From: Gemmatimonadota bacterium
GTDB lineage: Bacteria > Gemmatimonadota > Gemmatimonadetes > Gemmatimonadales > GWC2-71-9
DNA: 33,748 nt
NCBI GenBank assembly: GCA_003222055.1
Contig: QHUT01000083.1
Location: 1-33,748 of the forward strand
Direction: 5' to 3'
Below are positions 6,358 through 23,911 of this stretch, in pieces. The notes beneath the pieces are model-generated. The model was not told the DNA's origin, searched no databases, and was given only the letters and a program-made list of their open reading frames with translations. The position numbers and the translations under genes are program-made. The stretch's first letter is position 1. Each line of letters starts with the position of its first letter.

Positions 6358-6453
6358 ATGCGAAAAATAGCGTTGTACGACGCCACGACGCTACGTTCCA
6401 CGAACCCCCTTGCAACGTGGCGTCCTGGCGTCGTACGACGCATTTTTCCGCAT
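6358..6453. repeat. Long inverted repeat filling the greA/mrp divergent intergenic region
   Basis: Two arms of about 42 bases (6358-6399 and 6412-6453) are inverted copies with about four mismatches and two one-base gaps; the loop is about 12 bases. Each arm reads outward toward a start codon and contains a comparable promoter-like pair: TGCAAC-N17-TACGAC toward mrp (6411-6439) and TGGAAC-N17-TACAAC toward greA. It could extrude as a cruciform or act as a symmetrical divergent promoter/operator. Confidence 0.85.
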
Positions 6454-7246
6454 GCCCCTCAACATCCGCACCTATCACGAGCTGACCGAGCCGGATCGCT
6501 CCGGGCTCCCGGGCCAGATCGCGGCCCAGCGGCGTCGGGTGGCGGCGCGGCTCGCGGGCGTGGGGCGGGTAGTCGCCCTGATGAGCGGCAAGGGGGGCGT
6601 GGGGAAGAGCTTCGCCACCGCGGGCCTCGCCCGGGCGCTGGCGCGCGGGGGTTGGGCCGCGGGGGTGCTCGACGCCGATTTCAACGGACCGACCATCCCC
6701 GCACTCCTCCGCATCCCCGTCACAGGTTGCACGTTGCACGAGAACGGCGTCGAACCCCCGGTCAGTCCGGAGGGCGTGCGCTGCTTCTCGATGGCGCTGC
6801 TGCTCCAGGACGGCCGCCCGCTGGGGTTCCGGGGGCCGGAGGCCGAGAGTCACGTGTGGCGGGAGACGCTCGAGGCCGCGGCGCTGCGGGAGTTCCTGGC
6901 CGATGTGGCCTGGGGCGCGCTCGATCGGTTGCTGGTCGACCTGCCGCCGGGGATCCAGCGGTTCCAGGAGCTCGCCGAGCTGTTGCCGGCGCCACCGGCC
7001 GTGCTCACCGTGACGATTCCCACGACGGAATCGCGCGATGCGGTGCGGCGCGCGATGCAGTTCGCCCGGGAGCGCGGCGCGGAGCTGCTCGGCGTGGTGG
7101 AGAACATGGTGGACGGTCCGTTCACCGGAGACGCGGGCGAGGCCCTGGCGCGCGAATTCGGGGTGCCACTACTCGCGCGGATCCCGTGGCACCCGACGCA
7201 GGACGTGTGGGATGAGGTGGCGCGAAGAATGGAAGGCGTCGCATGA
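6452..7246 (+). CDS. Mrp/NBP35-like P-loop ATPase without the usual Cys pair
   Basis: The 264-residue protein belongs to the ParA/MinD-like Mrp ATPases, which carry Fe-S clusters. The deviant Walker A motif SGKGGVGKS is at residues 45-53, the DADFNGPTIP loop follows, and LLVDLPPGIQ forms Walker B. The C-terminal CPxC cluster-binding motif of typical Mrp proteins, expected just after GVVENM, is absent (GVVENMVDGPFTGDAG), and there is no N-terminal MIP18/DUF59 domain. Cluster transfer is therefore uncertain; another ATPase role is possible. I chose the ATG at 6452; an in-frame TTG at 6410 lies in the inverted repeat. The respiratory block begins about 100 bases downstream. Confidence 0.82.
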   Translation: MPLNIRTYHELTEPDRSGLPGQIAAQRRRVAARLAGVGRVVALMSGKGGVGKSFATAGLARALARGGWAAGVLDADFNGPTIPALLRIPVTGCTLHENGVEPPVSPEGVRCFSMALLLQDGRPLGFRGPEAESHVWRETLEAAALREFLADVAWGALDRLLVDLPPGIQRFQELAELLPAPPAVLTVTIPTTESRDAVRRAMQFARERGAELLGVVENMVDGPFTGDAGEALAREFGVPLLARIPWHPTQDVWDEVARRMEGVA

Positions 7247-7343: not shown

Positions 7344-7793
7344 ATGAAGTTTCTTTGCGTCGACTGCGACCGGCAGATGCTGTTCGAGGAGCGTCAACTC
7401 CCCGGGGACGGCACGCTCGCGGCGGCGTTCCGGTGCCCGCAGTGCGGCCGCGCCGTCGGCCTGTTGACGAATCCGATGGAAACGCAGCTCGTGGCGTCGC
7501 TGGGCGTGAAGATCGGCGGGACGACGATCGACCCGCAGCCGCTCGAGACGGTGCGGGGAATGGTCACCACGGGGAGAGACGAAGCCTTCGCGGAGGGGAC
7601 GGGGGACGGGGGACGAGGGACGAGTGTCACCTGGTCGGTCGAGGCGCAGGAGCGCCTGGCCCGCGTGCCCAACTTCGTGCGCGGGATGGTGAAGAAGATC
7701 TACGCCGACTATGCGAGGGACCGCGGCCTCGCGGAGATCACCCCGGCCGTGATGGACACCGCGCGGAGCGAGCTCGGGCTCGAGGGCATGTGA
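7344..7793 (+). CDS. Zinc-ribbon protein with C-terminal PCP_red-like domain
   Basis: The 149-residue protein has an N-terminal zinc ribbon (Cys5-x2-Cys8 and Cys31-x2-Cys34), a middle linker, and a C-terminal PCP_red-like domain (about 97-142) with the pattern W97-x3-A-x2-R-x3-V-P109-x-F. PCP_red is the small domain at the C-terminus of the B subunit of light-independent protochlorophyllide reductase; its stand-alone function is not established. The linker carries a Gly/Asp stretch (GTGDGGRGTS) encoded by a GGGGAC microsatellite. The next gene overlaps by 4 bases (GTGA). Related domains occur in two further proteins of the same cluster, which suggests a shared partner or ligand. The ATG is the first in-frame start giving an intact zinc ribbon. 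Confidence 0.75.
   Translation: MKFLCVDCDRQMLFEERQLPGDGTLAAAFRCPQCGRAVGLLTNPMETQLVASLGVKIGGTTIDPQPLETVRGMVTTGRDEAFAEGTGDGGRGTSVTWSVEAQERLARVPNFVRGMVKKIYADYARDRGLAEITPAVMDTARSELGLEGM
7595..7624. repeat. GGGGAC microsatellite inside the zinc-ribbon/PCP_red gene
   Basis: Four to five imperfect units of GGGGAC / GGGGGAC / GAGGGAC in tandem, read in frame as Gly, Asp, Thr and Arg between the zinc ribbon and the PCP_red-like domain. It resembles the other purine microsatellites of this window. Confidence 0.6.
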
Positions 7794-8038
7794 GCCGGGA
7801 GGAGCGGACAGTCCACGGACTGCGCATCGTGATCGACCGCGAGCAGTGCGTCGGGTTCGGCGACTGTGCGACGGCGGCCCCCGAGGGTTTCAAATTGGAC
7901 ACCGACACGATCGCGACCTTCCTCGAGCCGGAGCGGGTGGAGCGCGAGCGCCTGCTGCGCGCGTGTGACGCCTGTCCGGTGGACGCGATTACCGTGTGGG
8001 ATTCAGAGGGTAAGCAACTGGTGCCCCCGCTTACTTGA
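7790..8038 (+). CDS. Small single-cluster ferredoxin
   Basis: This 82-residue protein is probably an electron carrier for a partner encoded nearby. The cysteine pattern is Cys20-x5-Cys26 (CVGFGDC) and Cys59-x2-Cys62-Pro (CDACPVDAI). The middle cysteine of a classical CxxCxxC motif is replaced by Phe23, as in [3Fe-4S] ferredoxins of the CxGxGxC kind; Cys59 could still complete a 4Fe cluster. The GTG start overlaps the upstream stop (GTGA), so it is co-translated with the PCP_red-like protein. The radical SAM enzyme two genes downstream needs a low-potential electron and is an obvious candidate partner (inference). Confidence 0.82.
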   Translation: MSREERTVHGLRIVIDREQCVGFGDCATAAPEGFKLDTDTIATFLEPERVERERLLRACDACPVDAITVWDSEGKQLVPPLT

Positions 8039-8063
8039 CAGCCTGTCTCGTCGTTCACATACT
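8035..8063 (+). promoter_or_regulatory. Sigma70-like promoter before the stress-protein gene
   Basis: A perfect TTGACA (-35, 8035-8040) is followed by a 17-base spacer and CATACT (-10, 8058-8063, four of six matches). The predicted start near 8070 leaves a short leader with the ribosome site GGGGGAG ahead of the GTG at 8084. The -35 overlaps the ferredoxin stop codon, so genes from 8084 onward may be expressed separately from the two small upstream genes. Confidence 0.55.
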
Positions 8064-8083
8064 CGCCCCGCCCAAAGGGGGAG

Positions 8084-10078
8084 GTGCTGGTGTACCGCGA
8101 GATCTTCGTCCCGGTCGACAACTCGAGTCCTTCGGACTGGGCCGTCGACCGGGCCATCGAGTTGTGCCGTAAGTCCGACGGTCGCATCACCGGAAACCAC
8201 GTCTACGCCGCCCGCCTCCACGATGTCCGCTTTCGTCAGCTCGAAACCGGGCTCCCGGCCCGGTTCCAGACTCCCGACGAGATCAAGAAGCAGCGCAAGA
8301 TCCACGACAAGCTGATCGAAAAAGGCCTGCAGCTGATCGCGGACAGCTTTCTCGACCAGCTGGGGAAGCGGTGCGAGGCGGCCGGCGTGCGTCTGACTCG
8401 CCAGCTCCTGGAAGGCATCAACTACGAAGAGATCGTCAACGAGGTCAACCGCGGCGCCGGCCGGCTCCCCGGGCTGATCGGCTTCGACCCCGACCGCGCG
8501 GCGGGCTACGACGGGGGCGATAAGGCCCGCTCGGACGTAAAGCTGGGTGAGAACGGGCGGCTCATCGCCGAAGACGAGGACAGCGCCGCGCGGCTCGCGG
8601 GCTCGTCGGGCCGCCAGTACGACCTGCTCGCGATCGGAGCGCACGGCCTGGGGCGCCAGCCGTACTCGCAGCTCGGCGGCGTGGTGTCGCGCGTGCTGCG
8701 CGGCATCGAGAAGGACTTGCTGCTGGTGCGCGACGAGCGGCCGTTCGCGGGCGGGCGGTTCCTGGTAGGCGTGGACGGGTCGTCGTACGGCTACCGGGCG
8801 ATGCGCCTCGCGCTCGAGCTGGCCCAGGCGTTCGGCGGGTCGCTGTTCGTGTGCAGCGCGTTCGACGTCGAGTACCACCACGTCGTGTTTCACAACATCA
8901 AGGATGTGCTCTCCTATCAGGCTTCCAAAGTCTTCAAGTTCGAGGAGCAGGAGGAGCTGCACAACAACATCATCGACAAGGGACTCCTGAAGCTGTGCCA
9001 GGCGAACCTGAAGCGCGCCGAGGTGATGGCGCAGGAGTTCCCCGGCGTCCCCCTCACGACCCAGATCCTGATCGGCAAGCCGTTCCAGGTGATCATGCAG
9101 TGGGCCGAGGAGCTCAAGCCGTCGCTGCTGGTGCTGGCGCGGCACGGTGCCCATCGGATCGAAGGCACCGAGCTCGGCAGCCAGGCGGAGAACCTCCTGC
9201 GGCTGGCGCCGTGCAACGTGCTCCTCGCGGGGACGGGCGGGGTCCGGCCGGAAGACATCCCCTGGATCGAGGAAGACGGGGTGGCGGGGCTACCCTGGGC
9301 GCCCGAGGCCGAGGTGCGGATTCTCCGGGTGCCGCCATTCGCGCAGGGGATCGCGCGCCGGGCGGTCGAAGAGTACGTACTCGAGCAGACCCAGGGAGAG
9401 CCTGCGACGGTCACCAACAAATGGCTGGACGAGGCGATCCGGAAGCTCCTTCCCACGCACATGCAGCTCATCATGGGGATCGGCACGGCGGAGGAGATCG
9501 CGTTGGCGGAAGTGAAGGCGCAAGACCAGATGAAGGGCACGAAAGTACAGGGGCATGATTCCGACCCCCAGCCCCTGACCCCTGACGTGGAGGTCCGGTG
9601 TCCGGTGACCGGGGCGATCAGTCGGCGCCCGCGCGTCGCAACCGATCCCGTCGTCTGGACCGAAGAAGCCTGGGCCCGGCTGCAGCTCGTGCCGCTCATC
9701 GCCCGGCCGCTGGCGCGCAACACGGTGGAGCGGTTCGCGCGGGGCCACGACATCTGGCGCGTGACCACGCGCGTAATGGACGAGAACAAGCAGGCGATGA
9801 TCGCGGCCGACGAGTTCGACGTCGACACCATGATGGTCATGTTCCAGGAGCTGCGCGCCAAGCAGATCCGCGCGGAGGCGGAAGGAGGGGGCCGGGACGC
9901 CCTCTCACCCGAGATGCGGGCGTTCATCGAGGAGGCCAAGGCGCAGGGGGTGACGCGCTGCCCGATCCGTGACATCGACGCTCAGATAGGGAAGTGCCCC
10001 GTGGACTTGAAGACCATGAAGCCCGAGGAGGCGAAGGCGGCCATGGAGCGGCTGCTGGCGGAGCAAGCCGGAGACTGA
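8084..10078 (+). CDS. Tandem universal-stress protein fused to two PCP_red-like domains
   Basis: This 664-residue soluble protein contains two universal-stress (Usp) domains: residues about 4-220 (IFVPVDNSSPSDWAVDRAI, with a long insert before DLLAIGAHGLG) and about 224-383 (FLVGVDGSSYGYRAMRLAL... LLVLARHGAH... NVLLAG). The Gly-x2-Gly motifs that mark ATP-binding members are only partly kept. Two PCP_red-like repeats follow, with Trp405 and Trp525 starting the W-x3-A-x2-R-x3-V-P pattern. A Pro-rich insert between them comes from a microsatellite (9550-9586). The C-terminal tail has two isolated cysteines (TRCPIRD, GKCPVD). The GTG start has a good ribosome site. The radical SAM gene begins 1 base after its stop. 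A regulatory or scaffolding role is plausible but unproven. Confidence 0.78.
   Translation: MLVYREIFVPVDNSSPSDWAVDRAIELCRKSDGRITGNHVYAARLHDVRFRQLETGLPARFQTPDEIKKQRKIHDKLIEKGLQLIADSFLDQLGKRCEAAGVRLTRQLLEGINYEEIVNEVNRGAGRLPGLIGFDPDRAAGYDGGDKARSDVKLGENGRLIAEDEDSAARLAGSSGRQYDLLAIGAHGLGRQPYSQLGGVVSRVLRGIEKDLLLVRDERPFAGGRFLVGVDGSSYGYRAMRLALELAQAFGGSLFVCSAFDVEYHHVVFHNIKDVLSYQASKVFKFEEQEELHNNIIDKGLLKLCQANLKRAEVMAQEFPGVPLTTQILIGKPFQVIMQWAEELKPSLLVLARHGAHRIEGTELGSQAENLLRLAPCNVLLAGTGGVRPEDIPWIEEDGVAGLPWAPEAEVRILRVPPFAQGIARRAVEEYVLEQTQGEPATVTNKWLDEAIRKLLPTHMQLIMGIGTAEEIALAEVKAQDQMKGTKVQGHDSDPQPLTPDVEVRCPVTGAISRRPRVATDPVVWTEEAWARLQLVPLIARPLARNTVERFARGHDIWRVTTRVMDENKQAMIAADEFDVDTMMVMFQELRAKQIRAEAEGGGRDALSPEMRAFIEEAKAQGVTRCPIRDIDAQIGKCPVDLKTMKPEEAKAAMERLLAEQAGD
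9550..9586. repeat. C-rich repeat (CCCCTGAC units) inside the stress-protein gene
   Basis: The tract contains GACCCCCAG followed by CCCCTGA twice, preceded by GGGGCATGATTC. It is read in frame as HDSDPQPLTPD between the two PCP_red-like repeats. Composition and position suggest an inserted non-native segment tolerated in a linker. Confidence 0.55.
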
Positions 10079-10079
10079 C

Positions 10080-11357
10080 GTGGATTACGTCCCTCACGTG
10101 GTCGCGTGGAATCTGACCAAGCGCTGCAACCTGGAATGCGCGCACTGCTACATCGCGGCGGGGCCGAGCGAGAGCGCCGCCGCCGAGCTCGACACGGCGG
10201 CGTGCCTCGACATCGTGGACCAGCTGCTCGCCGTCAATCCCGCCCCGCTGCTCATCCTGTCGGGAGGCGAGCCGCTGTTGCGGCGGGATCTGGGCGAGAT
10301 CGCCCACTACGCGTCCGCCAACGGCGCGACGGTCGTGGTCGGGACCAACGGCACGCTGCTCACCGCGGAGCGCATCGCGGCGCTCACGGACGCCGGCGTG
10401 CGGGGGGTCGCGGTCAGCGTGGACTCGCTGCGTCCGTCGTATCACGACAAGTTCCGTCACGGCAGAGGCGCGCTCGCCGAGGTGCAAGGCGCATTGGCGC
10501 GACTGCGCGCGGCGCGGCTCGACTTCATCGTGCAGACGACGGTGACCAAGGGGAACCGCTCCGAGCTCGGAGCCTTGGTGGCGTGGTCGGCGGACGAGGG
10601 GGCCGTCTCGTTCAACTGCTACTTCCTCGTCCCGACCGGCCGTGGCGCGGCGCTCTCGGACCTGACGCCGGCGGACTACGAGGTGGTGCTCGCGGACCTC
10701 GCCCGCTGGGAGCGCGCCTATCGGGGCCGCATGCTGGTGCGGGCGAAATGCGCGCCGCACTTCATGCGGGTGGTGCATCAGACCGACCCCGGGTCGCCGG
10801 TCCTGAACTACGAGACCCGCTGTCCCTGCGGCACGCAGTACTGCCGCATCACGCCGGACGGCAAGGTCACCCCGTGCCCGTACCTGCCCGAGGTGGCCGG
10901 CGATCTCAAGTCGCAGCGCTTCGCCGACGTGTGGCGCTCGTCGCCCCTGTTCCGGCGCCTGCGGGAGGGCCCGCTCGAGGGGAAGTGCGGGGCGTGCGAG
11001 TACCGCGCGCTGTGCGGCGGGTGCCGCGCGCGCGGGTTCGCGCTCGAGGGAGACGTGCTCGCCGCCGATCCGTCGTGCGTGTATCAGCCGACGGGCGACA
11101 TGGCCCCCATCGAGCCGGCCCGCGCGCTGCGCTACGGTGGCGACTTCCAACCGGCGCTCGCGTGGACCCCGGCGGCGCGCGAGCGGGTGGCCCGGATCCC
11201 CTCGTTCGTGCGTGGGGTCGTGATGGAGCGCGTGGAGGCGTGGGCGCGCCGTCAGGGACGCCGTGAGGTGACGCCGGAGCTGCTCGCCGAGGTGCGGAGC
11301 GCCCTGCCGATCGATTTCGCCAAGAAGCGACCGTTCTTCGTGGCCGACGGCCGATGA
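10080..11357 (+). CDS. Radical SAM/SPASM protein with C-terminal PCP_red-like domain
   Basis: The 425-residue protein has the radical SAM cluster motif Cys16-x3-Cys20-x2-Cys23 (CNLECAHC), the GGEPLL SAM-binding strand and the VSVDSL strand of a partial TIM barrel. An auxiliary-cluster (SPASM-type) region follows: CPCGTQYC, VTPCPYLP, CGACEYRALCGGC and a last Cys. This layout resembles haem-pathway enzymes (NirJ, AhbC/AhbD) and peptide-modifying enzymes (PqqE). Residues about 362-408 form a PCP_red-like domain (W362-x3-A-x2-R-x3-I-P-x-F). No peptide substrate gene is visible. Its stop overlaps the start of the bd-like oxidase gene (ATGA). Modification of a tetrapyrrole or of an oxidase subunit is a reasonable guess, not shown. 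Confidence 0.83.
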   Translation: MDYVPHVVAWNLTKRCNLECAHCYIAAGPSESAAAELDTAACLDIVDQLLAVNPAPLLILSGGEPLLRRDLGEIAHYASANGATVVVGTNGTLLTAERIAALTDAGVRGVAVSVDSLRPSYHDKFRHGRGALAEVQGALARLRAARLDFIVQTTVTKGNRSELGALVAWSADEGAVSFNCYFLVPTGRGAALSDLTPADYEVVLADLARWERAYRGRMLVRAKCAPHFMRVVHQTDPGSPVLNYETRCPCGTQYCRITPDGKVTPCPYLPEVAGDLKSQRFADVWRSSPLFRRLREGPLEGKCGACEYRALCGGCRARGFALEGDVLAADPSCVYQPTGDMAPIEPARALRYGGDFQPALAWTPAARERVARIPSFVRGVVMERVEAWARRQGRREVTPELLAEVRSALPIDFAKKRPFFVADGR

Positions 11358-13078
11358 CCGCCGACGTCCTCGTGCTGCTGCAAGCCGCGGCCGACAGCAG
11401 TCACGCCTACGGAGAATTTCCGCTCATCGGCGCCCGCGCCGCGGTGTGGATCGCGGCGGAGGTGCACCTGATGTTCGCCGCGTTCGTGCTGGGCGTCCCG
11501 ATGTTCGCCGTGGTGGCGGAGGCGATCGGCATCTTCGGCAAGGACCAGCGCTACGACCGGCTCGCCAAGGAGTTCACGCGCCTGCTGCTCGTGGCGTACA
11601 GCGCCACGGCGATCTGGGGCGCGGTCCTCGTGTTCATCCTCGCGACGCTGTGGGCGAAGCCATGGTCGTACCTGACCGCCGTCTTCGGTCCGTCGATGTG
11701 GGCGTACGCCGCGCTGTTCTTCTGCGAGTCGTTCACGCTGTACCTCTATTACTACGGCTGGGACCGGTGGAAGTACGGGCGGCCGAAGTGGGGCCACTGG
11801 ACCCTGGGCCTGCTCTTGAACCTGTGGGGCACGATCGTGATGTTCATCGCGAATTCGTGGCTCACCTACATGATGACCCCGCCGCGGGACATCACTCCGA
11901 CCACCGATCCGGCGACGATCAAGCTGTGGCACGCGATCGCCAACGCGACGTGGATGCCGATCAACGTGCACCGACTGATCGCCAACGTGGTGTTCGGCGG
12001 CGCGATCGTCGCCGCGTACGCGAGCTACCGCTTCCTCGCCGCCCAGACCGACGAGGAGCGCGCCCACTACGACTGGATGGGTTACGTCGGCAACTTCATC
12101 GCCATCTCGGCCTTGATCGTGCTGCCGTTCGCCGGCTACTGGCTGGGCCGCGAGATCTACCAGTACGACCAGTCGATGGGCATCACGATGATGGGCGGCT
12201 TCATGAGCTGGCTGTGGGTCATTCAGGCGTTCCTGATCGCCGTGCTGTTCCTCACGGGGAACTATTACCTGTGGATCGGTATGGGTCGCATTCCCGGCGC
12301 GGAGCGGTTCCGGCCCTACACCAAGTACCTCCTGATCGTGCTGGTGCTCGGCGCGATCGTGTGGGGCACACCCCACACGATGATCGCCGACTCGAAGGAG
12401 CTGGCGGCGATGGGCGGCTCGCACCACCCGTTCCTGGGCGCGCTGGGCGTGATGAGCGCCAAGAACACCGCCGTGAACCTGATGATCCTCACGACGTTCC
12501 TGTCGTTCCTCCTGTACCGGCGCGCCAACACACGCCCGGTGGTGCCGTGGGCGAAGGGCGGCACGATGATCCAGGCGGCGATGTTCGCCCTCGCGGCCGG
12601 CGTCGTGCTGTTCTACGGCATCCGCGGCTATTTCGTCGAGGCCATCGTGCGGATCGGCTTCAGCGTGTATCAGGTGCTCGCCGTGCTGGGGTGCATCCTG
12701 TTCGTGACGGTGATCGACGTGCTGATGGGACGCGGTGCGCAGTCGTTGGGCGCGATCCAGTGGGGCAAGATGCCGCCGCGCTCACAGTACGCCCTGTTCG
12801 TCCTCGCGGTCACGTTCACGTGGCTCATGGGGCTCATGGGATTCGCGCGCTCCGGCATCCGCCAGTACTGGCACGTGTGGCAGGTGGTGCAGGATACGAG
12901 CAAGTACGCCGCCACCCCGGCGCTCGGCTACGCGTCCAAGATGATCAGCCTGTGCGTGCTGATCTTCCTCACGCTCGTCGCGTTCGTGTTCTGGCTCGGC
13001 GGCCTGGCGGAGAAGTCCACGTTCGTCGCCCCGGGCGACCGCGAGGGAGGGGGAGGGGGCCGCCATGTGGGCCACTAA
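11354..13078 (+). CDS. bd-superfamily oxidase subunit I-like protein (CydA-like)
   Basis: This 574-residue inner-membrane protein has about 13 predicted spans, against 9 in CydA. His38 (AEVHLMFAAFVLG) in the first span and His206 (NVHRLIANVVFGG) in the fifth match the positions of CydA haem ligands. The GRQPW signature of quinol-oxidising CydA is absent and there is no adjacent cydB. Such proteins belong to bd-superfamily branches outside the classical quinol oxidases. The next three genes encode cytochromes c, and the first overlaps it by 14 bases, suggesting electron supply from haem c rather than quinol (inference). Oxygen reduction is likely but unproven; a different terminal acceptor cannot be excluded. 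Confidence 0.78.
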   Translation: MTADVLVLLQAAADSSHAYGEFPLIGARAAVWIAAEVHLMFAAFVLGVPMFAVVAEAIGIFGKDQRYDRLAKEFTRLLLVAYSATAIWGAVLVFILATLWAKPWSYLTAVFGPSMWAYAALFFCESFTLYLYYYGWDRWKYGRPKWGHWTLGLLLNLWGTIVMFIANSWLTYMMTPPRDITPTTDPATIKLWHAIANATWMPINVHRLIANVVFGGAIVAAYASYRFLAAQTDEERAHYDWMGYVGNFIAISALIVLPFAGYWLGREIYQYDQSMGITMMGGFMSWLWVIQAFLIAVLFLTGNYYLWIGMGRIPGAERFRPYTKYLLIVLVLGAIVWGTPHTMIADSKELAAMGGSHHPFLGALGVMSAKNTAVNLMILTTFLSFLLYRRANTRPVVPWAKGGTMIQAAMFALAAGVVLFYGIRGYFVEAIVRIGFSVYQVLAVLGCILFVTVIDVLMGRGAQSLGAIQWGKMPPRSQYALFVLAVTFTWLMGLMGFARSGIRQYWHVWQVVQDTSKYAATPALGYASKMISLCVLIFLTLVAFVFWLGGLAEKSTFVAPGDREGGGGGRHVGH

Positions 13079-13874
13079 CCTCAAGGTCGTCGGGATCGTG
13101 CTCGGGACCCTGGCGCTCTATACGCTCATCGCCAACAAGATCCCCCAGGTGCAGTCCGAGGTGCCGCAGACCCTCACCCTGGGGGCGAACGTCACGCCCG
13201 AGCAGCTGGTGGCGGCGGGAGAGAAGGTGTTCAACGGCATCGGCGGCTGCACCACCTGCCACGGCCTCGGCACGCGCGCGCCCAATCTCCTCACCGACGA
13301 GAAGGGCACCGGACCGATCGGCGCCCGCTGCGGCAAGCGGGAAGCGGGCAAGAGCTGCAAGCAGTACCTGTACGAATCCCTCGACAATCCGACTGCCTAC
13401 GTGGTGACGGGCTATCAGCCGATCATGCCGGTAATGACCAAACAGCTCTCGCCGGCACAAGTGTGGTCCGTGATCGCGTTCCTCGAATCACAGGGCGGCA
13501 CGGTCGATGTGACCGCTTCGGACATCCCCGCAACCTCCAGCACCTCCACAACCTCGACAACGGCCGGTGGTGGAGGTGGTGGAGGTTCTGGAGGTTTTGC
13601 AGGGGGGAGCGCAGATCCCAAGGCGATCATCCAGGCGGCGGGGTGCCTCGCCTGCCACAAGCTCGACGGTCAGGGACAGGTGATCGCGCCCGATCTCACG
13701 CATGTCGGATCGCGCCGGGACGCGGAATCGATCCGCAAGAAAATCCTGGACCCGGCGTCTTCGATCGCGAAGGGCTACGAAAAGCTCGCCGGAATCATGC
13801 CCAAGACGTTCGGCACCATGATGAACGCCGCGCAGCTCGAAGCCCTGGTGCAATACCTGGGGGCGCACAAATGA
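13065..13874 (+). CDS. Membrane-anchored dihaem cytochrome c
   Basis: The 269-residue protein has an N-terminal uncleaved signal anchor (about 5-22) and two cytochrome c domains in the periplasm. Haem motifs are Cys62-x2-Cys65-His66 (CTTCH) and Cys194-x2-Cys197-His198 (CLACH). Candidate Met axial ligands include MPVM (about 121-124) in domain 1 and IMPKTFGTMM in domain 2. The domains are joined by a Ser/Thr then Gly linker (about 156-182) encoded by an inverted repeat. A strong ribosome site (GGAGGGGG) lies inside the 3' end of the bd-like gene, and the next gene overlaps by ATGA. It probably feeds the bd-like protein. Confidence 0.87.
   Translation: MWATNLKVVGIVLGTLALYTLIANKIPQVQSEVPQTLTLGANVTPEQLVAAGEKVFNGIGGCTTCHGLGTRAPNLLTDEKGTGPIGARCGKREAGKSCKQYLYESLDNPTAYVVTGYQPIMPVMTKQLSPAQVWSVIAFLESQGGTVDVTASDIPATSSTSTTSTTAGGGGGGGSGGFAGGSADPKAIIQAAGCLACHKLDGQGQVIAPDLTHVGSRRDAESIRKKILDPASSIAKGYEKLAGIMPKTFGTMMNAAQLEALVQYLGAHK
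13526..13605. repeat. Inverted repeat encoding the linker of the dihaem cytochrome
   Basis: The left arm (about 13526-13553, CCTCCA-rich) is an imperfect inverted copy of the right arm (about 13566-13605, GGTGGAGG-rich). The two arms encode a Ser/Thr linker followed by a Gly linker. In mRNA it would form a long GC/GU hairpin in the middle of the coding sequence. Confidence 0.6.
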
Positions 13875-14689
13875 CCGCCACGCCCGCCGTGCGGCGCTAC
13901 GCGGCGCACCCGTTCTGGCAGGCGGTGGCGATCATGGTCGGCGCCTACGTCGTGGTCGTATGGGTCGTTCCCTTGCTCCCGGGCAGCGCCATCGTCCCGA
14001 AGAGCGTGGTGCTCCAGTACATGGTCACAGTGCTGGTCGGCGTGCTCATCTACGTGAGCGACAACGAGGAGCGCTGGGCCCGATTCAAGGAGCCGATCGT
14101 GGCCGTGCTGGTCGAGCCGCGGCTCCGCGTCGCGCGGGCGGCGCTCCTGGTGGTGGTCACGGCGCTGGTCGGGCTGATCGCGTACGGGCAGGTGGCCACG
14201 ACCGTCGCCGCCCCGCCCAACCTCCGCTCGATCCACCCGGCTCCACCCGCGGAAATCACCTTCCGGGGCAGGTCGATCACGCTGACGGGCCTCGAGAATC
14301 CGCTGCGCGCGCATCCCGATTCGCTTGCGGTCTATCTGGCGGAGGGCAAGAGCGTCTACTACCGGAACTGTCTGCCCTGTCACGGGGACCACCTCGACGG
14401 CCAGGGGCATTTCGCCTCCGGCTTCAATCCGCTCCCGGCCAACTTCCAGGACAACGGCACCATCGCGCAGCTCACGGAGAGCTTCGTGTTCTGGCGCGTG
14501 GCCAAGGGCGGGCCGGGTCTGCCGCGCGAGGGCACGCCGTGGAACTCGGCGATGCCGAAGTGGGAGGACTTTCTCACGGAGCGCGAGATCTGGGCGGTCA
14601 TCCTCTTCCTCTACGATCAAACCGGGTGGACTCCACGGACCTGGGAAAAAACGGGGGAAGTGGGAAGAGGGAAGGGGGAAGGGTCGTGA
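13871..14689 (+). CDS. Membrane-bound monohaem cytochrome c
   Basis: The 272-residue protein has three likely membrane spans (about 17-38, 47-62 and 88-106), followed by a periplasmic cytochrome c domain with Cys167-x2-Cys170-His171 (CLPCH). The motif MPKWEDFLTEREIWAVILFLY near the end supplies a probable axial Met and the C-terminal helix typical of class I cytochromes c. The last residues (EVGRGKGEGS) are encoded by a purine microsatellite and look added on. It overlaps both neighbours by 4 bases. No wider family is recognised; the position suggests a membrane electron-transfer subunit of the bd-like complex. Confidence 0.83.
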   Translation: MTATPAVRRYAAHPFWQAVAIMVGAYVVVVWVVPLLPGSAIVPKSVVLQYMVTVLVGVLIYVSDNEERWARFKEPIVAVLVEPRLRVARAALLVVVTALVGLIAYGQVATTVAAPPNLRSIHPAPPAEITFRGRSITLTGLENPLRAHPDSLAVYLAEGKSVYYRNCLPCHGDHLDGQGHFASGFNPLPANFQDNGTIAQLTESFVFWRVAKGGPGLPREGTPWNSAMPKWEDFLTEREIWAVILFLYDQTGWTPRTWEKTGEVGRGKGEGS

Positions 14690-14750: not shown

Positions 14751-16251
14751 GATGCAAGACACCACCCGCGGGAAGACGGTCTACGTGAAATGGTGCGCCG
14801 GTTGCCACGGAGACGGTGGCGCCGGCGACGGCCCGGCCGCCGCGCACATGCTCCCCCGGCCCCGCAACTTCACGGGCGCGCTCTACAAGATCCGCACGAC
14901 GGCCTCCGGCCAGCTGCCGACCGACGCCGATCTGATGCGGGCGATCGACGAAGGCCTGCCCGGGACCGCGATGCCCGCGTGGAAGGGACGGCTCTCGGAC
15001 GGCGAGCGGCGTGACGTGGTGGCCTACATCAAGACCTTCTCGTCGTTCTTCGCGGACACGAGCCAGCACGTGGCGGCGCTCAAGTTCTCGAGCGAGCCGG
15101 GCGGCGCGACCGGCGCGGCGGCGCTCGACACCGGGCGGCAGTTCTACGATTCCATCGGGTGCCGCAAGTGTCACGGCGACCAGGGGCGGGGAGACGGGCC
15201 GTCCGCGCCCACGCTCAAGGACGACGCCGGTTTTCCCATCTTCGCGGCGGACCTGCATCAGAGCTGGCGGTTTCGGGGGGGGGGCAGCGCCGCGGACATC
15301 TATCATCGGCTGCGCACCGGGCTCGACGGGACGCCGATGCCGTGGTTCTCGGACCTGATCGACCAGAAATTCCTGACCGACGAGCAGCTGTGGCGGCTGG
15401 CCCAATACGTGCGCTCGCTCTCGCCGCCGGAAGCGCCCGAGGTGCGCGACGTCATCCATGCGCCGCAAATCACCCGAACGGTGCCGGCCTCGCCGGACGA
15501 CTCAGTGTGGGGGCGGGTGAGCCGCTACTGGTTCCCGCTGGTCGGGCAGGTGGTGCGGAAGGCACGCTGGTTCGCGCCCGCGGTGACAGGCGTGTGGGTG
15601 CAGGCGGTGCACGACGGCCACACCCTGGCGCTACGGGTGAGCTGGGACGACCGCACCCAGAGCCCCGACAGCGCGTGGCTCGGGTTCGAGCAGCGGGTGC
15701 TCGAGACCGTCGCGGGCGACGATTCGGCCCCGCCCAAGGCGGAGCCCTGGCCCGACCAACTGGCGGTGCAGTTTCCCCGCCACATCCCGGATGGCATGGA
15801 GCGGCCCTACTTCCTGATGGGGAGCGAGACCGACCCGGTGTACCAGTGGCGCTGGACGAGCCGGCCGCGCAAGAGCGTGGCGGGCCTAGCCCGGGGCATC
15901 GAGCGGTTCGACACGCTCTCCGGGGCGCCGGCGGGACAGGCGAGCTTCGATCACGGCGAATGGAGGCTGGTATTCACGCGCGCCCTTGCCACGCCCGATA
16001 CCGCCAACGAAGTTCAGCTTGAGGCCGGCCGGGCGATTCCGGTGGCCTTCTTCGGCTGGGACGGCTCCAGCGGGGAACACGGCTCGCGCATGGCCGTGAG
16101 CACCTGGTACTTCCTGGCGCTCGATCGGCCCACGCCGCCGGGCGTGTTCATTTCTCCGGTGCTGGCCATGCTCGTGACGCTGGGGCTGGGACTCGTGGTC
16201 GTCCGGCGGGCCCGGCGGCGCGGTACGGCAGGTGCGGGGAGACGGCGATAG
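14686..16251 (+). CDS. Dihaem cytochrome c with EB_dh-like haem-binding domain
   Basis: The 521-residue protein has a short hydrophobic N-terminus (about 1-22), two cytochrome c domains (Cys37-x2-Cys40-His41 and Cys159-x2-Cys162-His163, with MPAWK and MPWF as probable axial Met sites), and a domain of about 240-480 resembling the haem-b-binding gamma subunit of ethylbenzene/DMSO-type dehydrogenases. A C-terminal anchor span (about 489-508) is followed by Arg-rich residues. This cytochrome plus EB_dh layout is known in respiratory complexes such as nitrite oxidoreductase gamma-type subunits, but no molybdenum catalytic subunit is present here. The GTG at 14686 overlaps the upstream stop and is the only start that keeps the hydrophobic segment. 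It likely brings electrons to the adjacent oxidases. Confidence 0.8.
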   Translation: MIGALLGLGIVLRFPLPPSLFPMQDTTRGKTVYVKWCAGCHGDGGAGDGPAAAHMLPRPRNFTGALYKIRTTASGQLPTDADLMRAIDEGLPGTAMPAWKGRLSDGERRDVVAYIKTFSSFFADTSQHVAALKFSSEPGGATGAAALDTGRQFYDSIGCRKCHGDQGRGDGPSAPTLKDDAGFPIFAADLHQSWRFRGGGSAADIYHRLRTGLDGTPMPWFSDLIDQKFLTDEQLWRLAQYVRSLSPPEAPEVRDVIHAPQITRTVPASPDDSVWGRVSRYWFPLVGQVVRKARWFAPAVTGVWVQAVHDGHTLALRVSWDDRTQSPDSAWLGFEQRVLETVAGDDSAPPKAEPWPDQLAVQFPRHIPDGMERPYFLMGSETDPVYQWRWTSRPRKSVAGLARGIERFDTLSGAPAGQASFDHGEWRLVFTRALATPDTANEVQLEAGRAIPVAFFGWDGSSGEHGSRMAVSTWYFLALDRPTPPGVFISPVLAMLVTLGLGLVVVRRARRRGTAGAGRRR

Positions 16252-16279
16252 CGTGCGGGACTTTCATCGAGGAGGCAGG

Positions 16280-17011
16280 ATGGGGAAGCTCGGAGTGGTG
16301 GCGGCGACGGGAGTCGCGATGCTGACGCTGGCGGGGTGGATGCGCCCGCCGCTCCCCGCCGCGCAGGGCGGCGCGACGATCAGCGGGAAGGTGAAGTTCA
16401 CCGGAGCGAAGCCCGCCATGCCGAAGATCGACATGAGCGAGGAGCCGAAGTGCAAGGCGAAGTACACCGCCGCGCCGCCCACAGACGAGGCCGTGGTGGT
16501 GAACGCGAACGGCACCCTCGACAACGTGTTCGTCTACGTGAAGTCGGGCCTCCCGGCGAGCTACAAGGCGCCCGCGCCCGCCGGGCCGGTGACGCTCGAC
16601 CAGGACGGCTGCCGCTACCATCCGCACGTGTTCGGCATCCTGGTCGGCCAGGCCCTCGCCATCAAGAACTCCGACGGCATCCTGCACAACATCAAGGCGA
16701 AGGGGACCAAGAACCGCCCGTTCAACATCAGCCAACCGACGACCATGACGTCGGAGCGGACCTTCACGGCCCCGGAGGTGATGGTGCCGCTCGAGTGCAA
16801 CGTGCACGGTTGGATGCACGCGTGGCTGGGCGTGTTGCCGCACCCGTTCTTCTCCGTCTCGGGCTCGGACGGCAGCTTCACGATCAAGGGGCTCCCGCCC
16901 GGGACCTACACGGTCGAGGCCTGGCACGAGAAGTACGGCGCGCAGACCGCGACCGTGACGGTGGCGGGGAGCGAGACGAAGACGGCGGACTTCAGCTTCG
17001 CCGCCAAGTGA
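16280..17011 (+). CDS. Periplasmic cupredoxin-like protein with carboxypeptidase-regulatory-like domain
   Basis: This 243-residue exported protein has a signal peptide (about 1-29, ending PAAQG). It carries a plastocyanin-like fold with a full type-1 copper ligand set: His136 (ILHNIKA), Cys173, His176 and Met179 (CNVHGWM). The C-terminal part (about 190-243, GSFTIKGLPPGTYTVEAWH) resembles a carboxypeptidase regulatory-like beta-sandwich. The ATG follows a perfect GGAGG site, which decides this start over an in-frame upstream ATG at 16232. coxB follows after 19 bases. It may shuttle electrons from the upstream cytochromes to the CuA site, or deliver copper; the ligand set favours electron transfer. 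Confidence 0.82.
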   Translation: MGKLGVVAATGVAMLTLAGWMRPPLPAAQGGATISGKVKFTGAKPAMPKIDMSEEPKCKAKYTAAPPTDEAVVVNANGTLDNVFVYVKSGLPASYKAPAPAGPVTLDQDGCRYHPHVFGILVGQALAIKNSDGILHNIKAKGTKNRPFNISQPTTMTSERTFTAPEVMVPLECNVHGWMHAWLGVLPHPFFSVSGSDGSFTIKGLPPGTYTVEAWHEKYGAQTATVTVAGSETKTADFSFAAK

Positions 17012-17030: not shown

Positions 17031-17702
17031 ATGCGCTGGTGGCTGCCGCTCAAAGCTTCGACGTTCACCGGGCCAATCGACGGCCTGTTTCTGGCGATCT
17101 TGATCATCACGGGGATCGCGTTCGTGCTGGTCGAGGTCGGATTGCTCTGGTTCGTCGTGAAGTACCGGCAGCGGCCCGGTCGCAAGGCGTTTTACACGCA
17201 CGGCAGCACCCGCGCGGAAGTGATCTGGACCGTGATCCCCGCGGTGACCATGGTGGCGCTGGGTCTCATCAGCAATCACTACTGGGTCGAGATCAAGGGC
17301 CGCAACAGCATCCCGCCGAACGCTTATCCCATCGGCATCCACGCCAAGCAGTTCGAGTGGCAGGTGACCTACCCCGGCCCTGACGGCAAGCTCGGCACGT
17401 CCGACGACTTCACGGTCCGCAACCAGCTGCACGTGCCGGTGGGCCGACCGATCGTCGTCGCGTTGTCGTCCGAAGACGTCATCCACTCGTTCTACGTGCC
17501 GCAGTTTCGCGTCCGGCAGGATGCCGTCCCCGGGATGGACATCAAGGCCTGGTTCCAGGCGACGGTGCCGGGCACCTATGAGCTGGGCTGCTCGCAGCTC
17601 TGCGGCCTCGGACATTACCGCATGCGGGCGCAGGTGTTCGTGCAGACCCAGGAAGACTACGACGCCTGGATGAAGCAGGCTGCTCAGGAGGCCTCGTCAT
17701 GA
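17031..17702 (+). CDS. coxB: Cytochrome c oxidase subunit II
   Basis: CoxB accepts electrons from cytochrome c or a cupredoxin at a binuclear CuA centre. The 223-residue protein has two membrane spans (about 18-43 and 63-83) and a periplasmic cupredoxin domain with His152, Cys187, Cys191, His195 and Met198 (HSFYVP; CSQLCGLGHYRM). The common Glu between the two Cys is Gln here. There is no fused cytochrome c domain, so this is not a caa3-type fusion. A GAGGAG ribosome site precedes the ATG. It overlaps coxA by 4 bases. Confidence 0.95.
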   Translation: MRWWLPLKASTFTGPIDGLFLAILIITGIAFVLVEVGLLWFVVKYRQRPGRKAFYTHGSTRAEVIWTVIPAVTMVALGLISNHYWVEIKGRNSIPPNAYPIGIHAKQFEWQVTYPGPDGKLGTSDDFTVRNQLHVPVGRPIVVALSSEDVIHSFYVPQFRVRQDAVPGMDIKAWFQATVPGTYELGCSQLCGLGHYRMRAQVFVQTQEDYDAWMKQAAQEASS

Positions 17703-19465
17703 CCACCGTGGCCGCGACGTCCCACCCCGCCCCCGCGCATCACGACGACCGGAGCTTCCTCCGGAAGTACGTGTTTTCGACCGATCACAAGATCATCGGC
17801 ATCCAGTTCTTGTTCGTCAGCCTGTTCTTCCTGCTCGTGGGCGGGCTTTTGGCGATGCAGATGCGCTGGCAACTCGGCTTCCCGGGCAAGCCGATGCCGG
17901 GCGGCGGCGTGCTGCCCGAGACCATGGCGCCGGGCGGCGTTATCCTGCCGGAGTACTACATCCAGCTCCTGACGATGCACGGCACGTTCATGGTGTTCTT
18001 CGCCATCATGCCGCTGCTCGTGGGCGTGTACGCCAACTTCCTGATCCCGCTCAAGATCGGGACGCACGACATGGCGTTCCCGCGTATCAACATGTGGTCG
18101 TTCTGGTCGTTCTTCGCAGCGGGCCTGGTGATGCTGTCGAGCCTGTTCGTGCCCGACGGCGCGGCGCGCGCCGGGTGGACGATGTACGCGCCGCTGTCGG
18201 CGCGGCACGACCTCTCGGGCGCCTCCTTCGGCCAGGAGCTGTGGTCGGTCTCGATCATTCTGGTCGGGCTGTCGTCGATCCTCGGCTCTCTGAACTACAT
18301 CACGACGGTCATCAACAACCGCGCCCCCGGCATGACGTGGTTTCGCCTGCCGCTCTCGGTGTGGTCGCTGTTCATCACCGCCATCCTCGGCCTGCTCGCC
18401 CTGCCCGTGCTTTCCGGCGCGGCGATCATGCTCTTGTTCGACCAGATCATCGGGACGCATTTCTTCGATCCCGCGGCGGGCGGCCAGGCCCTGCTGTGGC
18501 AGCACCTCTTCTGGTTCTTCGGCCATCCCGAGGTCTACATCCTGATCCTGCCGGCGATGGGCATGGTGTCGGATATCATCGCCAACGGCAGCCGCAAGCC
18601 GATCTTCGGCTACCACTCGATGGTGTTCGCGATCGTGGCGATCGCGTTCCTGGGCTGGATCGTGTGGGGCCACCACATGTTCGTGAGCGGCATGAACCCG
18701 ACGCTGGGATCGTCGTTCATGGTGTCGACGCTGGTGATCGCCGTCCCCTCGGCCGTGAAGACGTTCAACTGGATGGGGACGATGTGGCGCGGCAACATCA
18801 AGTTCACGGTGCCGATGCTCAACGCGATCGCGTTCGTCGCGATGTTCGTGATCGGCGGGCTGTCGGGGATCTTCATGGCCGCGACGCCGGTGGACATGCA
18901 AATCCACGACACCTACTTCATCGTGGCCCACCTGCACTACGTGCTGTTCGGCGGCAGCCTGTTCGCGCTGTTCGCCGCGATTCCGTACTGGTATCCCAAG
19001 ATGTTCGGCCGGATGATGAGCGAGCGGTGGGGCAAGGTGCATTTCTGGCTCACATTCGTCTTCTATAATTGCACCTTTTTCCCGATGCACATCACGGGGA
19101 TGGGTGGGGAGATGCGACGGCTGTACGACCCGAACCAGTACACCTTCTTGCAGCCCTACCAGCCGATCAGGGTGTTCATCTCGATCAGCGCGTTCCTGCT
19201 GTTCGCGACGCAGATCATCTTTTTCGTGAACTTCTGGTGGAGCCTGAAGCGGGGCAAGCCGTCCGGGCTCAATCCCTGGCAGGACAACGGCCTGGAGTGG
19301 ACGCTGCCGAGTCCCGCGCCGCACGGCAACTGGGAGCGCGTGCCGACGGTGTATCGGGGGCCGTACGAGTTCAGCTCGCCGCAGGTGCCCGAGGACTACC
19401 TGCCGCAGACCCGCAAGCTGCCGAGCGACCGTGAGCCGGCCGCCGCGTCGGCCGCACGCCACTGA
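17699..19465 (+). CDS. coxA: Cytochrome c oxidase subunit I, A-type haem-copper oxidase
   Basis: CoxA is the proton-pumping catalytic subunit that reduces O2 at the haem a3-CuB site. The 588-residue protein has the usual 12 or more spans. Visible ligands are His94 and His413 (low-spin haem), His411 (haem a3), and His276, His325 and His326 (CuB). Glu278 and Tyr280 in GHPEVY, plus Asp124 (THDMAFPR) and Lys354 (SAVKTFNW), indicate D- and K-type proton channels of the A1 family. The ribosome site CAGGAGG lies inside the coxB end. The order coxB-coxA-coxC-coxD is standard. Confidence 0.97.
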   Translation: MTTVAATSHPAPAHHDDRSFLRKYVFSTDHKIIGIQFLFVSLFFLLVGGLLAMQMRWQLGFPGKPMPGGGVLPETMAPGGVILPEYYIQLLTMHGTFMVFFAIMPLLVGVYANFLIPLKIGTHDMAFPRINMWSFWSFFAAGLVMLSSLFVPDGAARAGWTMYAPLSARHDLSGASFGQELWSVSIILVGLSSILGSLNYITTVINNRAPGMTWFRLPLSVWSLFITAILGLLALPVLSGAAIMLLFDQIIGTHFFDPAAGGQALLWQHLFWFFGHPEVYILILPAMGMVSDIIANGSRKPIFGYHSMVFAIVAIAFLGWIVWGHHMFVSGMNPTLGSSFMVSTLVIAVPSAVKTFNWMGTMWRGNIKFTVPMLNAIAFVAMFVIGGLSGIFMAATPVDMQIHDTYFIVAHLHYVLFGGSLFALFAAIPYWYPKMFGRMMSERWGKVHFWLTFVFYNCTFFPMHITGMGGEMRRLYDPNQYTFLQPYQPIRVFISISAFLLFATQIIFFVNFWWSLKRGKPSGLNPWQDNGLEWTLPSPAPHGNWERVPTVYRGPYEFSSPQVPEDYLPQTRKLPSDREPAAASAARH

Positions 19466-19485
19466 CCGAGGGAGAGGGACGACCG

Positions 19486-20163
<678 letters not shown>

Positions 20164-21783: not shown

Positions 21784-22896
21784 ATGACCGCCAAGTCTCC
21801 CGAGCGCCGCCAAGTCGTCCGCTTCGCCTTCTACAAGCTCGACAGCGCGTGGCGCCGGCTCTCGGCCGAGCGGCAGGCGAGCGCCAAGCTCGAGTTCGGC
21901 GAGACGATCGAGAGCTTCGCCGGCCGGCTGTTGCTCCGCCCGTACGGGCTCGTCGGCATCCGCGGCGACTGCGATTTCCTGTTGTGGCAGGTGGCGGAAG
22001 ATCTGGATTCCCTGGTGGCGCTGCAGACCGCACTCAACCGCACGGACCTGGGGGGGTATCTCGCGGTCCCCTACAGCTACCTCGCGATGACGCGGCGCTC
22101 CATCTACGAGTTTCCCGAAGCCCCCGGTGCGGGACAGCCCTCCCGGCTCGTCATCCGGCCGAGCGATGCCCGCTATCTGTTCGTGTACCCGTTCATCAAG
22201 ACGAGGGGCTGGTACATGCTGCCCAAGACGGAGCGGCAGGGCATGATGGACGAGCACGTGCGCATCGGGCGCCAGTACCCGTCGATCCGGCTCAACACGA
22301 CGTATTCGTATGGGCTCGACGATCAGGAGTTCATCGTCGCCTTCGAGGGCGACAACCCCGCCGACTTTCTCGACCTGGTGATGGAGCTGCGCGAGAGCAA
22401 GGCGTCGTCCTATACGCTGCGCGACACGCCGACGTTCACCTGCGTCCAGATGTCGCTGTGGGACATGCTGGACACCCTGGGGGGAGCGGGGTCGGCGCAG
22501 GCGGTGTCGCGCCGGCCCGCCCGGGCGGACGGCTATACGCCGGTGGCGACGCTCGCCGATCTGCCGGCCGGCTCGAGCCGGCGGGTGTACGCGGGCGGTG
22601 ACGCCGTCGCGCTCTTCAACGTGGACGGCACCGTGCACGCCATCGCCAACCGCTGCACCCATGCCCGCGCCAGCCTCTCCGAAGGCACGGTCGATGCGAC
22701 GCGCTGCGCGGTGACGTGCCCGTGGCACGAAGGCGTCTTCTCGCTCGAGACCGGTCAGGTGCTGGGCGGGCCGCCGTCGCTGCCGGTCGCCACCTATCGA
22801 GTGAAGGTCGAGGGCGACACGGTCCTCATCGCTCCCCCCGGTGTGCCCGGTGTGATGGACGCGCGCGAGCCGATTGCCCCCCGCCCTCGCTCCTGA
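21784..22896 (+). CDS. chdC: Coprohaem decarboxylase (HemQ/ChdC) fused to a Rieske domain
   Basis: ChdC performs the last step of the coproporphyrin-dependent pathway, converting coprohaem to haem b. Residues 1-235 match the chlorite-dismutase-like fold: catalytic Tyr135 in YPFIKT, the probable proximal ligand His158 in MMDEHVRIGRQYP, and NTTYSYGLDDQEF. Residues about 250-352 form a Rieske [2Fe-2S] domain with Cys291-x-His293 and Cys312-x2-His315 (CTHA; CPWH), of the small-subunit/ferredoxin type. A fused Rieske domain is unusual for this enzyme; it could supply or sense electrons or oxidant during decarboxylation (inference). hemE overlaps its end by 23 bases. Confidence 0.9.
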   Translation: MTAKSPERRQVVRFAFYKLDSAWRRLSAERQASAKLEFGETIESFAGRLLLRPYGLVGIRGDCDFLLWQVAEDLDSLVALQTALNRTDLGGYLAVPYSYLAMTRRSIYEFPEAPGAGQPSRLVIRPSDARYLFVYPFIKTRGWYMLPKTERQGMMDEHVRIGRQYPSIRLNTTYSYGLDDQEFIVAFEGDNPADFLDLVMELRESKASSYTLRDTPTFTCVQMSLWDMLDTLGGAGSAQAVSRRPARADGYTPVATLADLPAGSSRRVYAGGDAVALFNVDGTVHAIANRCTHARASLSEGTVDATRCAVTCPWHEGVFSLETGQVLGGPPSLPVATYRVKVEGDTVLIAPPGVPGVMDAREPIAPRPRS

Positions 22897-23911
22897 CGAC
22901 AGCCGCTTCCTCAAGGCGTGCCGCTCGGAGCCCACCGATGTGACGCCGGTGTGGTTCATGCGGCAGGCCGGCCGCTACCTGCCGGAATACCGCGCGTTGC
23001 GGCAGAAGCACTCGCTGCTCGAGCTGTGCCACAAGCCTGAGCTCGCGGCCCAGGTCACTTTGCAGCCGATCGAGCGCCTCGGCGTGGACGCGGCGATTCT
23101 GTTCGCCGACATCCTGCTGCCGTTCGAGCCGCTCGGCCTGGGCCTCACGTTTTCCGCGGGCGAGGGCCCGCAGATCACCCGCCCCGTCCGCGAGGCGGGC
23201 CAGGTGCTGGAGCTGCCGCCGGTGGACCCCGCCACCGACCTCGCCTACGTACTGGAGGCGGCGCGGCTCGCGGCGCGAGCACTGCCCCCCCATGTCCCGC
23301 TCATCGGCTTCGCCGGCGCGCCGTTCACTCTGGCGAGCTACGCGATCGAGGGCGGCGCGACGCGCAGCTTCACCCTGACCAAGCGGTTCATGTACTCGGA
23401 GCCGCGCGCGTGGCACCAGCTGCTCGAGCGGCTCGCGGAGCTGGTCGGTGCCTACCTGGCGGCCCAGGCCCGCGCCGGGGCGCGCGCGCTGCAGCTGTTC
23501 GACAGCTGGGTGGGATGTCTCTCCCCGGCCGATTACGCGACCTATGTCTTTCCCCACAGCCAGCGGACGCTCGAGCTGGCGGCCGCGTCGCGTGTGCCGG
23601 TGATCCATTTCGGGACCGATACTGCCGGCCTGCTCGCGGACTTCGCCCGAGCGGGGGGCGACGTGATCGGCGTCGACTGGCGCGTCCCCCTCGACGTCGC
23701 GTGGGAGCGGATCGCTCCGGCGTCCATTCAGGGAAACCTCGATCCCGCGGCGTTGCTCGCCCCTCGCGCGGAGCTCGAGCGCCAGACGCGAGAGGTCCTC
23801 GCCCGCGCGGGCTCGAGGCCCGGACACATCTTCAACCTGGGCCACGGCGTGCTCCCCGAGACGCCGGTCGAGGCGCTGCAGGCCGTGGTGGACTGGGTGC
23901 ATGGCGGCTGA
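22874..23911 (+). CDS. hemE: Uroporphyrinogen III decarboxylase
   Basis: HemE removes four carboxyl groups from uroporphyrinogen III to give coproporphyrinogen III. The 345-residue protein has the signature VWFMRQAGRYLPEYRALR near the N-terminus, LFADILLPFEPLGLG, GFAGAPFTLASYAIEGG, the DSWVGCLSPADY catalytic region and the C-terminal NLGHGVLPETP. The TTG start at 22874 lies inside the end of chdC and is the only start that precedes the conserved N-terminal motif at family distance. It overlaps the next gene by 11 bases. Confidence 0.95.
   Translation: MPPALAPDDSRFLKACRSEPTDVTPVWFMRQAGRYLPEYRALRQKHSLLELCHKPELAAQVTLQPIERLGVDAAILFADILLPFEPLGLGLTFSAGEGPQITRPVREAGQVLELPPVDPATDLAYVLEAARLAARALPPHVPLIGFAGAPFTLASYAIEGGATRSFTLTKRFMYSEPRAWHQLLERLAELVGAYLAAQARAGARALQLFDSWVGCLSPADYATYVFPHSQRTLELAAASRVPVIHFGTDTAGLLADFARAGGDVIGVDWRVPLDVAWERIAPASIQGNLDPAALLAPRAELERQTREVLARAGSRPGHIFNLGHGVLPETPVEALQAVVDWVHGG

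Follow-up and report, generated by a model that had tools for sequence, protein, structure and literature searches.

PCP_red proteins encoded beside a divergent cytochrome bd-like oxidase in Gemmatimonadota suggest an undescribed system for making or delivering oxidase haem

Three proteins carrying PCP_red domains are encoded immediately before a divergent, cytochrome bd-like CydA in the window analysed here (a stretch of 33,748 nucleotides, contig QHUT01000083.1, from a non-phototrophic Gemmatimonadota MAG), and this protein set, together with its OR-N-like CydA, points to a system, so far undescribed, for the synthesis or delivery of oxidase haem. The carriers of the set are soil bacteria without photosynthesis, and in two phyla it is nearly always found with this CydA, in most cases next to it. 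The association is evident in the domains themselves, in operon structure, in co-occurrence across genomes and in linkage to haem genes, and from it we infer the chemistry. Our tentative reading, held at a little under even confidence, is that the PCP_red proteins form an accessory system dedicated to the OR-N-like oxidase, giving it a modified haem or a protected route of haem delivery. The PCP_red domain, the tandem Usp fold and OR-N-like oxidases are each known already. A search of open-licence papers for PCP_red, PF08369 or the gene combination returned nothing relevant, and earlier mention elsewhere is possible.

PCP_red domains and the proteins that carry them

Four PCP_red domains (PF08369) are distributed over a zinc-ribbon protein (7344..7793; one, C-terminal), a tandem universal stress protein (Usp; 8084..10078, PF00582 113 bits; two) and an AhbD/NirJ2-like radical SAM/SPASM protein (10080..11357, PF04055 and PF13186; one, C-terminal), all on the forward strand, as are the other window genes described below. 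Against a Pfam cut-off of 32.5 bits for this family, the profile search gave 53.3 bits for the zinc-ribbon protein (residues 97–141), 59.4 bits for the Usp protein over two stretches (best 525–569) and 39.5 bits for the radical SAM protein (residues 362–406), scores at which the matches are not due to chance. A search of the whole genome returned exactly four places (7632-7766, 9296-9394, 9656-9790 and 11163-11297) and no PCP_red elsewhere. In that search the second Usp copy scored 42.8 bits, and the first copy (W405), taken alone, scored 30.0 bits over profile positions 1–33, slightly below the cut-off because a three-residue insertion ends the alignment to the profile at position 33; in other genomes the corresponding copy can exceed the cut-off (for example 41.2 bits in G044 and 40.3 bits in G025). 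With the third predicted helix, which lies past the insertion, this copy extends over 9296..9448. The preliminary description of this DNA had proposed that the four segments are PCP_red-like, and the profile scores agree with it. Phototrophy was considered and rejected, none of the four places in this genome lying on a BchB-type protein.

The same description had called for superposing all four segments on the BchB C-terminal domain, whose fold they would share. Direct comparison of structures bears this out for the zinc-ribbon copy, whose model ranks 2kru, the solved PCP_red domain of Chlorobium BchB, first in the PDB (Z 9.4, rmsd 2.2 A, 58 residues), with Asr4154 and ChlB (2ynm) also among the top rows. 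For the other three the assignment comes from profile score, to which the two Usp copies add a matching order of predicted helices (H407-413, H418-435 and H445-455 in copy 1; H527-533, H541-554 and H562-574 in copy 2) when set beside the zinc-ribbon copy (H99-106, H110-127 and H134-144); the three-helix fold of the radical SAM copy is thus assigned by profile only. The full Usp model was compared whole, and PCP matches are therefore absent from its fold lists. In the comparison of zinc-ribbon residues 92–149, the PCP_red entries are followed, at Z 5–6.5, by AAA+ proteins of the RuvB/MCM kind, whose small lid domain is similar in fold.

The pattern W-x3-A-x2-R-x3-[VI]-P, reported earlier at W97, W405, W525 and W362, occurs at these four sites in the window proteins tested, compared with 0.0115 occurrences per residue-shuffled set. 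BchB does not fit the pattern, having M (2kru) or E (2xdq) at the Arg position, and the Arg therefore marks this branch of PCP_red. The PCP domains of the radical SAM proteins match their own type best in 6 of 6 cases across the three groups of genomes described below, and the profiles gave no clear assignment of Usp PCP copies in other phyla to copy 1 or copy 2. It is reasonable to regard PCP_red as a docking or ligand-binding module common to the three proteins.

Residues 1–391 of the Usp protein form a tandem Usp fold in the predicted model, with Rv2623 (3cis) aligned at Z 28 over 280 residues. Rv2623 and UspE share this fold, but the module protein differs from both in having PCP_red domains, from one to several and in some cases accompanied by a zinc ribbon, and long insertions that contain invariant His pairs 28 residues apart in each repeat (H46/H74 and H265/H293), which are kept in two phyla. 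In the second of these phyla the Usp has three PCP_red domains with a zinc ribbon between them; large Usp-like proteins without matches to the PCP_red motif also occur in third-phylum genomes (L230–L233). In the zinc-ribbon protein, the cysteines C5, C8, C31 and C34 are invariant. Two further genes belong to the module: a single 4Fe-4S ferredoxin (7793..8038, start codon uncertain; PF13370 44 bits), conserved in the cluster, and a Mrp/NUBPL-like deviant-Walker P-loop ATPase (6410..7246; PF10609 145 bits), whose position beside the zinc-ribbon gene is conserved. The CxxC expected to bridge a cluster is lacking in the ATPase of the window and its near relatives and kept in those of L038, L041, L042, L045, L046, L050 and L052; it has been lost in the window's genus and retained in several other genera.

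The radical SAM protein retains CxxxCxxC (C16, C20 and C23) and the cysteines of a C-terminal SPASM domain. It scores 286.8 bits against NirJ2 (TIGR04055) and 286.1 bits against AhbD (TIGR04545; 286.5 bits in the genome search), in each case below a curated cut-off of 500. For the radical SAM-PCP proteins of all three groups these are the nearest families (286–312 bits, far under the cut-offs), and the likeness of radical SAM/SPASM architecture is accompanied by a difference, the additional C-terminal PCP_red; on these scores the protein is most sensibly placed in an undescribed subfamily of its own within the haem-related AhbD/NirJ2 group. AhbD and NirJ alter the propionates of porphyrins or haem (PMC7242693). 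In the window's genome no plain AhbD scored above the cut-off, and plain haem d1 synthesis was rejected on finding no PF02239 match there. A link to haem d1 was likewise set aside: the four strong NirS (cytochrome cd1) matches in relatives do not follow the module, one occurring with it (among G014, G015, G025 and G031) and three without.

The oxidase gene cluster and its occurrence across genomes

Beyond what the preliminary description had recorded, the next gene after the radical SAM gene encodes the divergent CydA (11354..13078; PF01654 71.6 bits), the constant partner of the module in the co-occurrence counts below, and haem genes lie in the same clusters. H38 and H206 of this CydA align with the canonical CydA histidines and are both invariant. 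A hand alignment of the C-terminal GRQPW region, which automatic alignment does not settle, suggests loss of the Glu ligand of haem b595 (E445 in E. coli), the position apparently being Gly here. The protein is probably OR-N-like, a label given here because it is divergent, has cytochrome c genes as neighbours and lacks an adjoining CydB gene. OR-N CydAA' of Nitrospirota, Nitrospinota and Ca. Manganitrophus TO_1 is similar in combining divergent CydA with c-type cytochromes, and a periplasmic cytochrome b in TO_1 is comparable to the EB_dh domain of the window, whereas the window cluster has one CydA, together with cox2-1-3; the portions of these OR-N descriptions available to us make no mention of PCP_red partners (PMC10839748, PMC12342949, PMC9040806). 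Conservation of OR-N-like bd oxidases is reported for the majority of Nitrospinota and of Nitrospirales genomes (PMC10839748, PMC12342949), and the family is there termed uncharacterized.

CydA is followed by a di-haem cytochrome c (13065..13874; PF00034, two CxxCH), a membrane mono-haem cytochrome c (13868..14689; PF13442, one CxxCH), a di-haem cytochrome c fused to an ethylbenzene-dehydrogenase-type haem b domain (14767..16251, start uncertain; PF00034 and PF09459, two CxxCH), a carboxypeptidase-regulatory-like protein in a conserved position (16232..17011; PF13620) and cox2, cox1 and cox3 of a haem-copper oxidase (17031..20163; PF00116, PF00115 and PF00510). The order mrp, zinc-ribbon-PCP, ferredoxin, Usp-PCP, radical SAM-PCP, cydA, cytC1, cytC2, cytC-EB, carbreg, cox2, cox1, cox3 is that of Gemmatimonadota and is kept across 80 loci, nearly all from this phylum, with missing genes usually corresponding to contig ends. 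A second phylum has the order Usp-PCP, radical SAM-PCP, mrp, cydA, cytC (L200, L202). Elsewhere in the window's own genome, a canonical CydA (L220, C136) shares one long reading frame (879 aa) with a CydB-like stretch that follows it, so that a cydA-cydB fusion appears likely.

Linkage to haem synthesis recurs in several clusters. After the oxidase cluster of the window, with one gene between, come the coproporphyrin-dependent haem genes hemQ, hemE and hemH (21784..24821; PF06778+PF00355, PF01208 and PF00762), the first of which (21784–22896) encodes a HemQ (chlorite-dismutase family) that ends in a fused Rieske domain at its C terminus. The clusters of other genomes contain hemA, hemE, hemQ and hemH as an insertion (L085), protoporphyrinogen oxidase, hemD, hemE and a class-III aminotransferase read as hemL (L068), hemC (L121) or protoporphyrinogen oxidase (L234, L235), and in L207, where CydA is present on the same contig, the module adjoins a UbiA-type gene, read as ctaB, and cox3. 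Two genes upstream of Usp-PCP in L234, a cluster shared with radical SAM-PCP, protoporphyrinogen oxidase and CydA, there is also a clade III lactonase-type nitrous oxide reductase gene on the reverse strand (L234:11858-13633; NF052460 753 bits, cut-off 700).

The module is close to all-or-none in its distribution. In 60 relatives, of which the close ones are Gemmatimonadetes MAGs, there are mostly four PCP_red matches or none. Among 249 Gemmatimonadota genomes, 60 have both at least three PCP_red matches and this CydA, two have the PCP_red matches only, two CydA only and 185 neither (Fisher p 1e-52); the corresponding counts in the phylum of G061, labelled Candidatus Rokuibacteriota, are 57, 7, 2 and 29 (p 1.5e-15), and in the phylum of G063, labelled Chromatiales, 2 of 398 genomes have Usp-PCP and CydA on one contig (L234 and L235, the former also with radical SAM-PCP). 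Shared ancestry inflates these p-values, and repetition in separate phyla is therefore the stronger argument. The Gemmatimonadota exceptions include G028, whose two PCP_red matches lie on separate contigs, and G357, with a more distant CydA. HemQ is present in 58 of the 62 Gemmatimonadota genomes with at least three PCP_red matches and in 56 of the 187 others (p 8e-20); many genomes have HemQ without the module, compared with few that have CydA without it. The claim that the PCP_red proteins belong to one multi-protein system is strongly supported by the conserved gene order and near all-or-none presence, and the gene-neighbourhood survey found co-occurrence in related genomes; coincidental neighbourhood is ruled out on the same two grounds.

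PCP proteins occur without this CydA in seven second-phylum genomes and two Gemmatimonadota, and in two of these nine a Usp-PCP or radical SAM-PCP gene lies near cox genes (L209, L217). Because of these two loci, and of L207 with its ctaB-like gene and cox3, the PCP module belongs with terminal oxidases, CydA being its most constant partner. Gemmatimonadaceae genomes in which one or two PCP_red matches occur, the best near 1e-19, form a separate class and are interpreted as BchB-containing phototrophs. A Gemmatimonadaceae locus of another kind (L045 in G041) has a Usp of second-phylum type with three PCP domains and lacks such a CydA; it adjoins a PIN-like/AbrB-like gene pair resembling a toxin-antitoxin pair, and this Usp-PCP was likely acquired by horizontal transfer. 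A mobile element was rejected as the source of the module, no homologue of the zinc-ribbon protein being found on plasmids at E 0.01. A related CydA clade (L120:4197-6194, 48 percent in L120; G357) has its own cytochromes and no adjoining PCP genes, and L120 has in addition the usual module-linked copy.

A proposed relay and its rivals

In DPOR, PCP_red lies on the subunit that handles, and reduces, protochlorophyllide, and the module resembles the BchL/BchNB system both in this small domain, found at the C terminus of BchB/ChlB (2kru, 2xdq, 2ynm), and in the combination of a ferredoxin and a P-loop ATPase with a PCP_red protein. It differs in that zinc-ribbon, Usp or radical SAM domains precede PCP_red in the three window proteins, which have no nitrogenase-like (Oxidored_nitro) domain, and in that the genome has no BchB-type match and the ATPase is Mrp/NUBPL, not BchL. 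The DPOR papers found do not give the partners contacted by the BchB C-terminal domain. Asr4154 of Nostoc (2l09, solved by NMR) is similar as a PCP_red outside BchB, but is a single domain from a phototroph, and we know of no operon in which it accompanies both a radical SAM gene and oxidase genes. Following the ferredoxin-BchL-BchNB logic, the ferredoxin of the module would supply electrons and the Mrp-like ATPase would act as an ATP switch. PCP_red may serve on each member of the relay as a tetrapyrrole-holding or partner-docking unit, such that zinc-ribbon-PCP and tandem Usp-PCP, the latter with its nucleotide-binding fold and conserved His pairs, would hold porphyrin or haem and hand it on, the AhbD/NirJ2-like radical SAM-PCP would remodel a tetrapyrrole side chain, and the product would go into the CydA encoded by the next gene. 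Most likely, the OR-N-like oxidase would in this way receive a modified haem or be served by a protected route of haem delivery. To our knowledge, the haem content and maturation of such oxidases have not been established.

Several findings count against this reading: the nine genomes with PCP proteins and without this CydA, the related CydA clade without the module in G357, the sub-threshold scores of the radical SAM protein against both AhbD and NirJ2, and the HemQ route through which, judged from its genes, the window's genome already makes haem b. The co-occurrence could also reflect a role in assembling the whole c/cox cluster. The nearest rival, which we consider doubtful, is an oxygen-independent coproheme decarboxylase: radical SAM-PCP would be a functional AhbD that takes over the step from coproheme to haem b at oxygen levels insufficient for HemQ, with the PCP proteins as coproheme carriers. 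AhbD is one of its two nearest families, hemE, hemQ and hemH adjoin the module, and the enrichment of HemQ in genomes with at least three PCP_red matches is expected if coproheme is the common intermediate. However, the module tracks CydA far more closely than it does HemQ, the protein falls below the AhbD cut-off, and the clusters of L234 and L235 contain protoporphyrinogen oxidase, whose usual branch yields no coproheme; as far as we know, plain AhbD requires no Usp, zinc-ribbon or PCP partners, which also counts against it.

Two further rivals, a complex formed by docking alone and a Usp with a regulatory role, have a lower probability. In the former, which seems unlikely, PCP_red would be a protein-docking tag and nothing else, and the complex of ferredoxin, ATPase, Usp and radical SAM protein would install a non-haem feature in the oxidase, such as a peptide modification or an inserted Fe-S cluster or metal. 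The radical SAM protein does also score with SPASM peptide maturases (e.g. mycofactocin MftC, GeoRSP), Mrp/NUBPL-type ATPases are an Fe-S carrier family, and the PCP fold resembles the AAA+ lid domain as well; yet its scores with these maturases (151 and 142 bits) fall far short of the 287 bits obtained with the nearest families, the interleaved genes concern haem and not peptides, and PCP_red is otherwise known on a tetrapyrrole enzyme. In the regulatory reading, the Usp would be a sensor of ATP, haem or redox state that acts on the oxidase operon or on the haem pathway, with the PCP domains as haem-sensing elements. This would be in keeping with a tandem Usp fold with nucleotide-type motifs and with the equal spacing of its invariant histidines, but a Pfam profile search found no DNA-binding or signalling domain in the module proteins, and the radical SAM, ferredoxin and ATPase partners indicate chemistry, making regulation quite improbable.

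A stronger form of the accessory-system reading, in which the module makes a novel haem or chlorin-type cofactor for OR-N-like oxidases and PCP_red is a portable tetrapyrrole carrier domain, is on the unlikely side; if it is true, a domain of a chlorophyll enzyme has been put to respiratory use by non-phototrophs in three or more lineages. The gene set that tracks such CydA so closely offers a testable handle on how OR-N-like oxidases are made, and would give PCP_red a role beyond chlorophyll synthesis.
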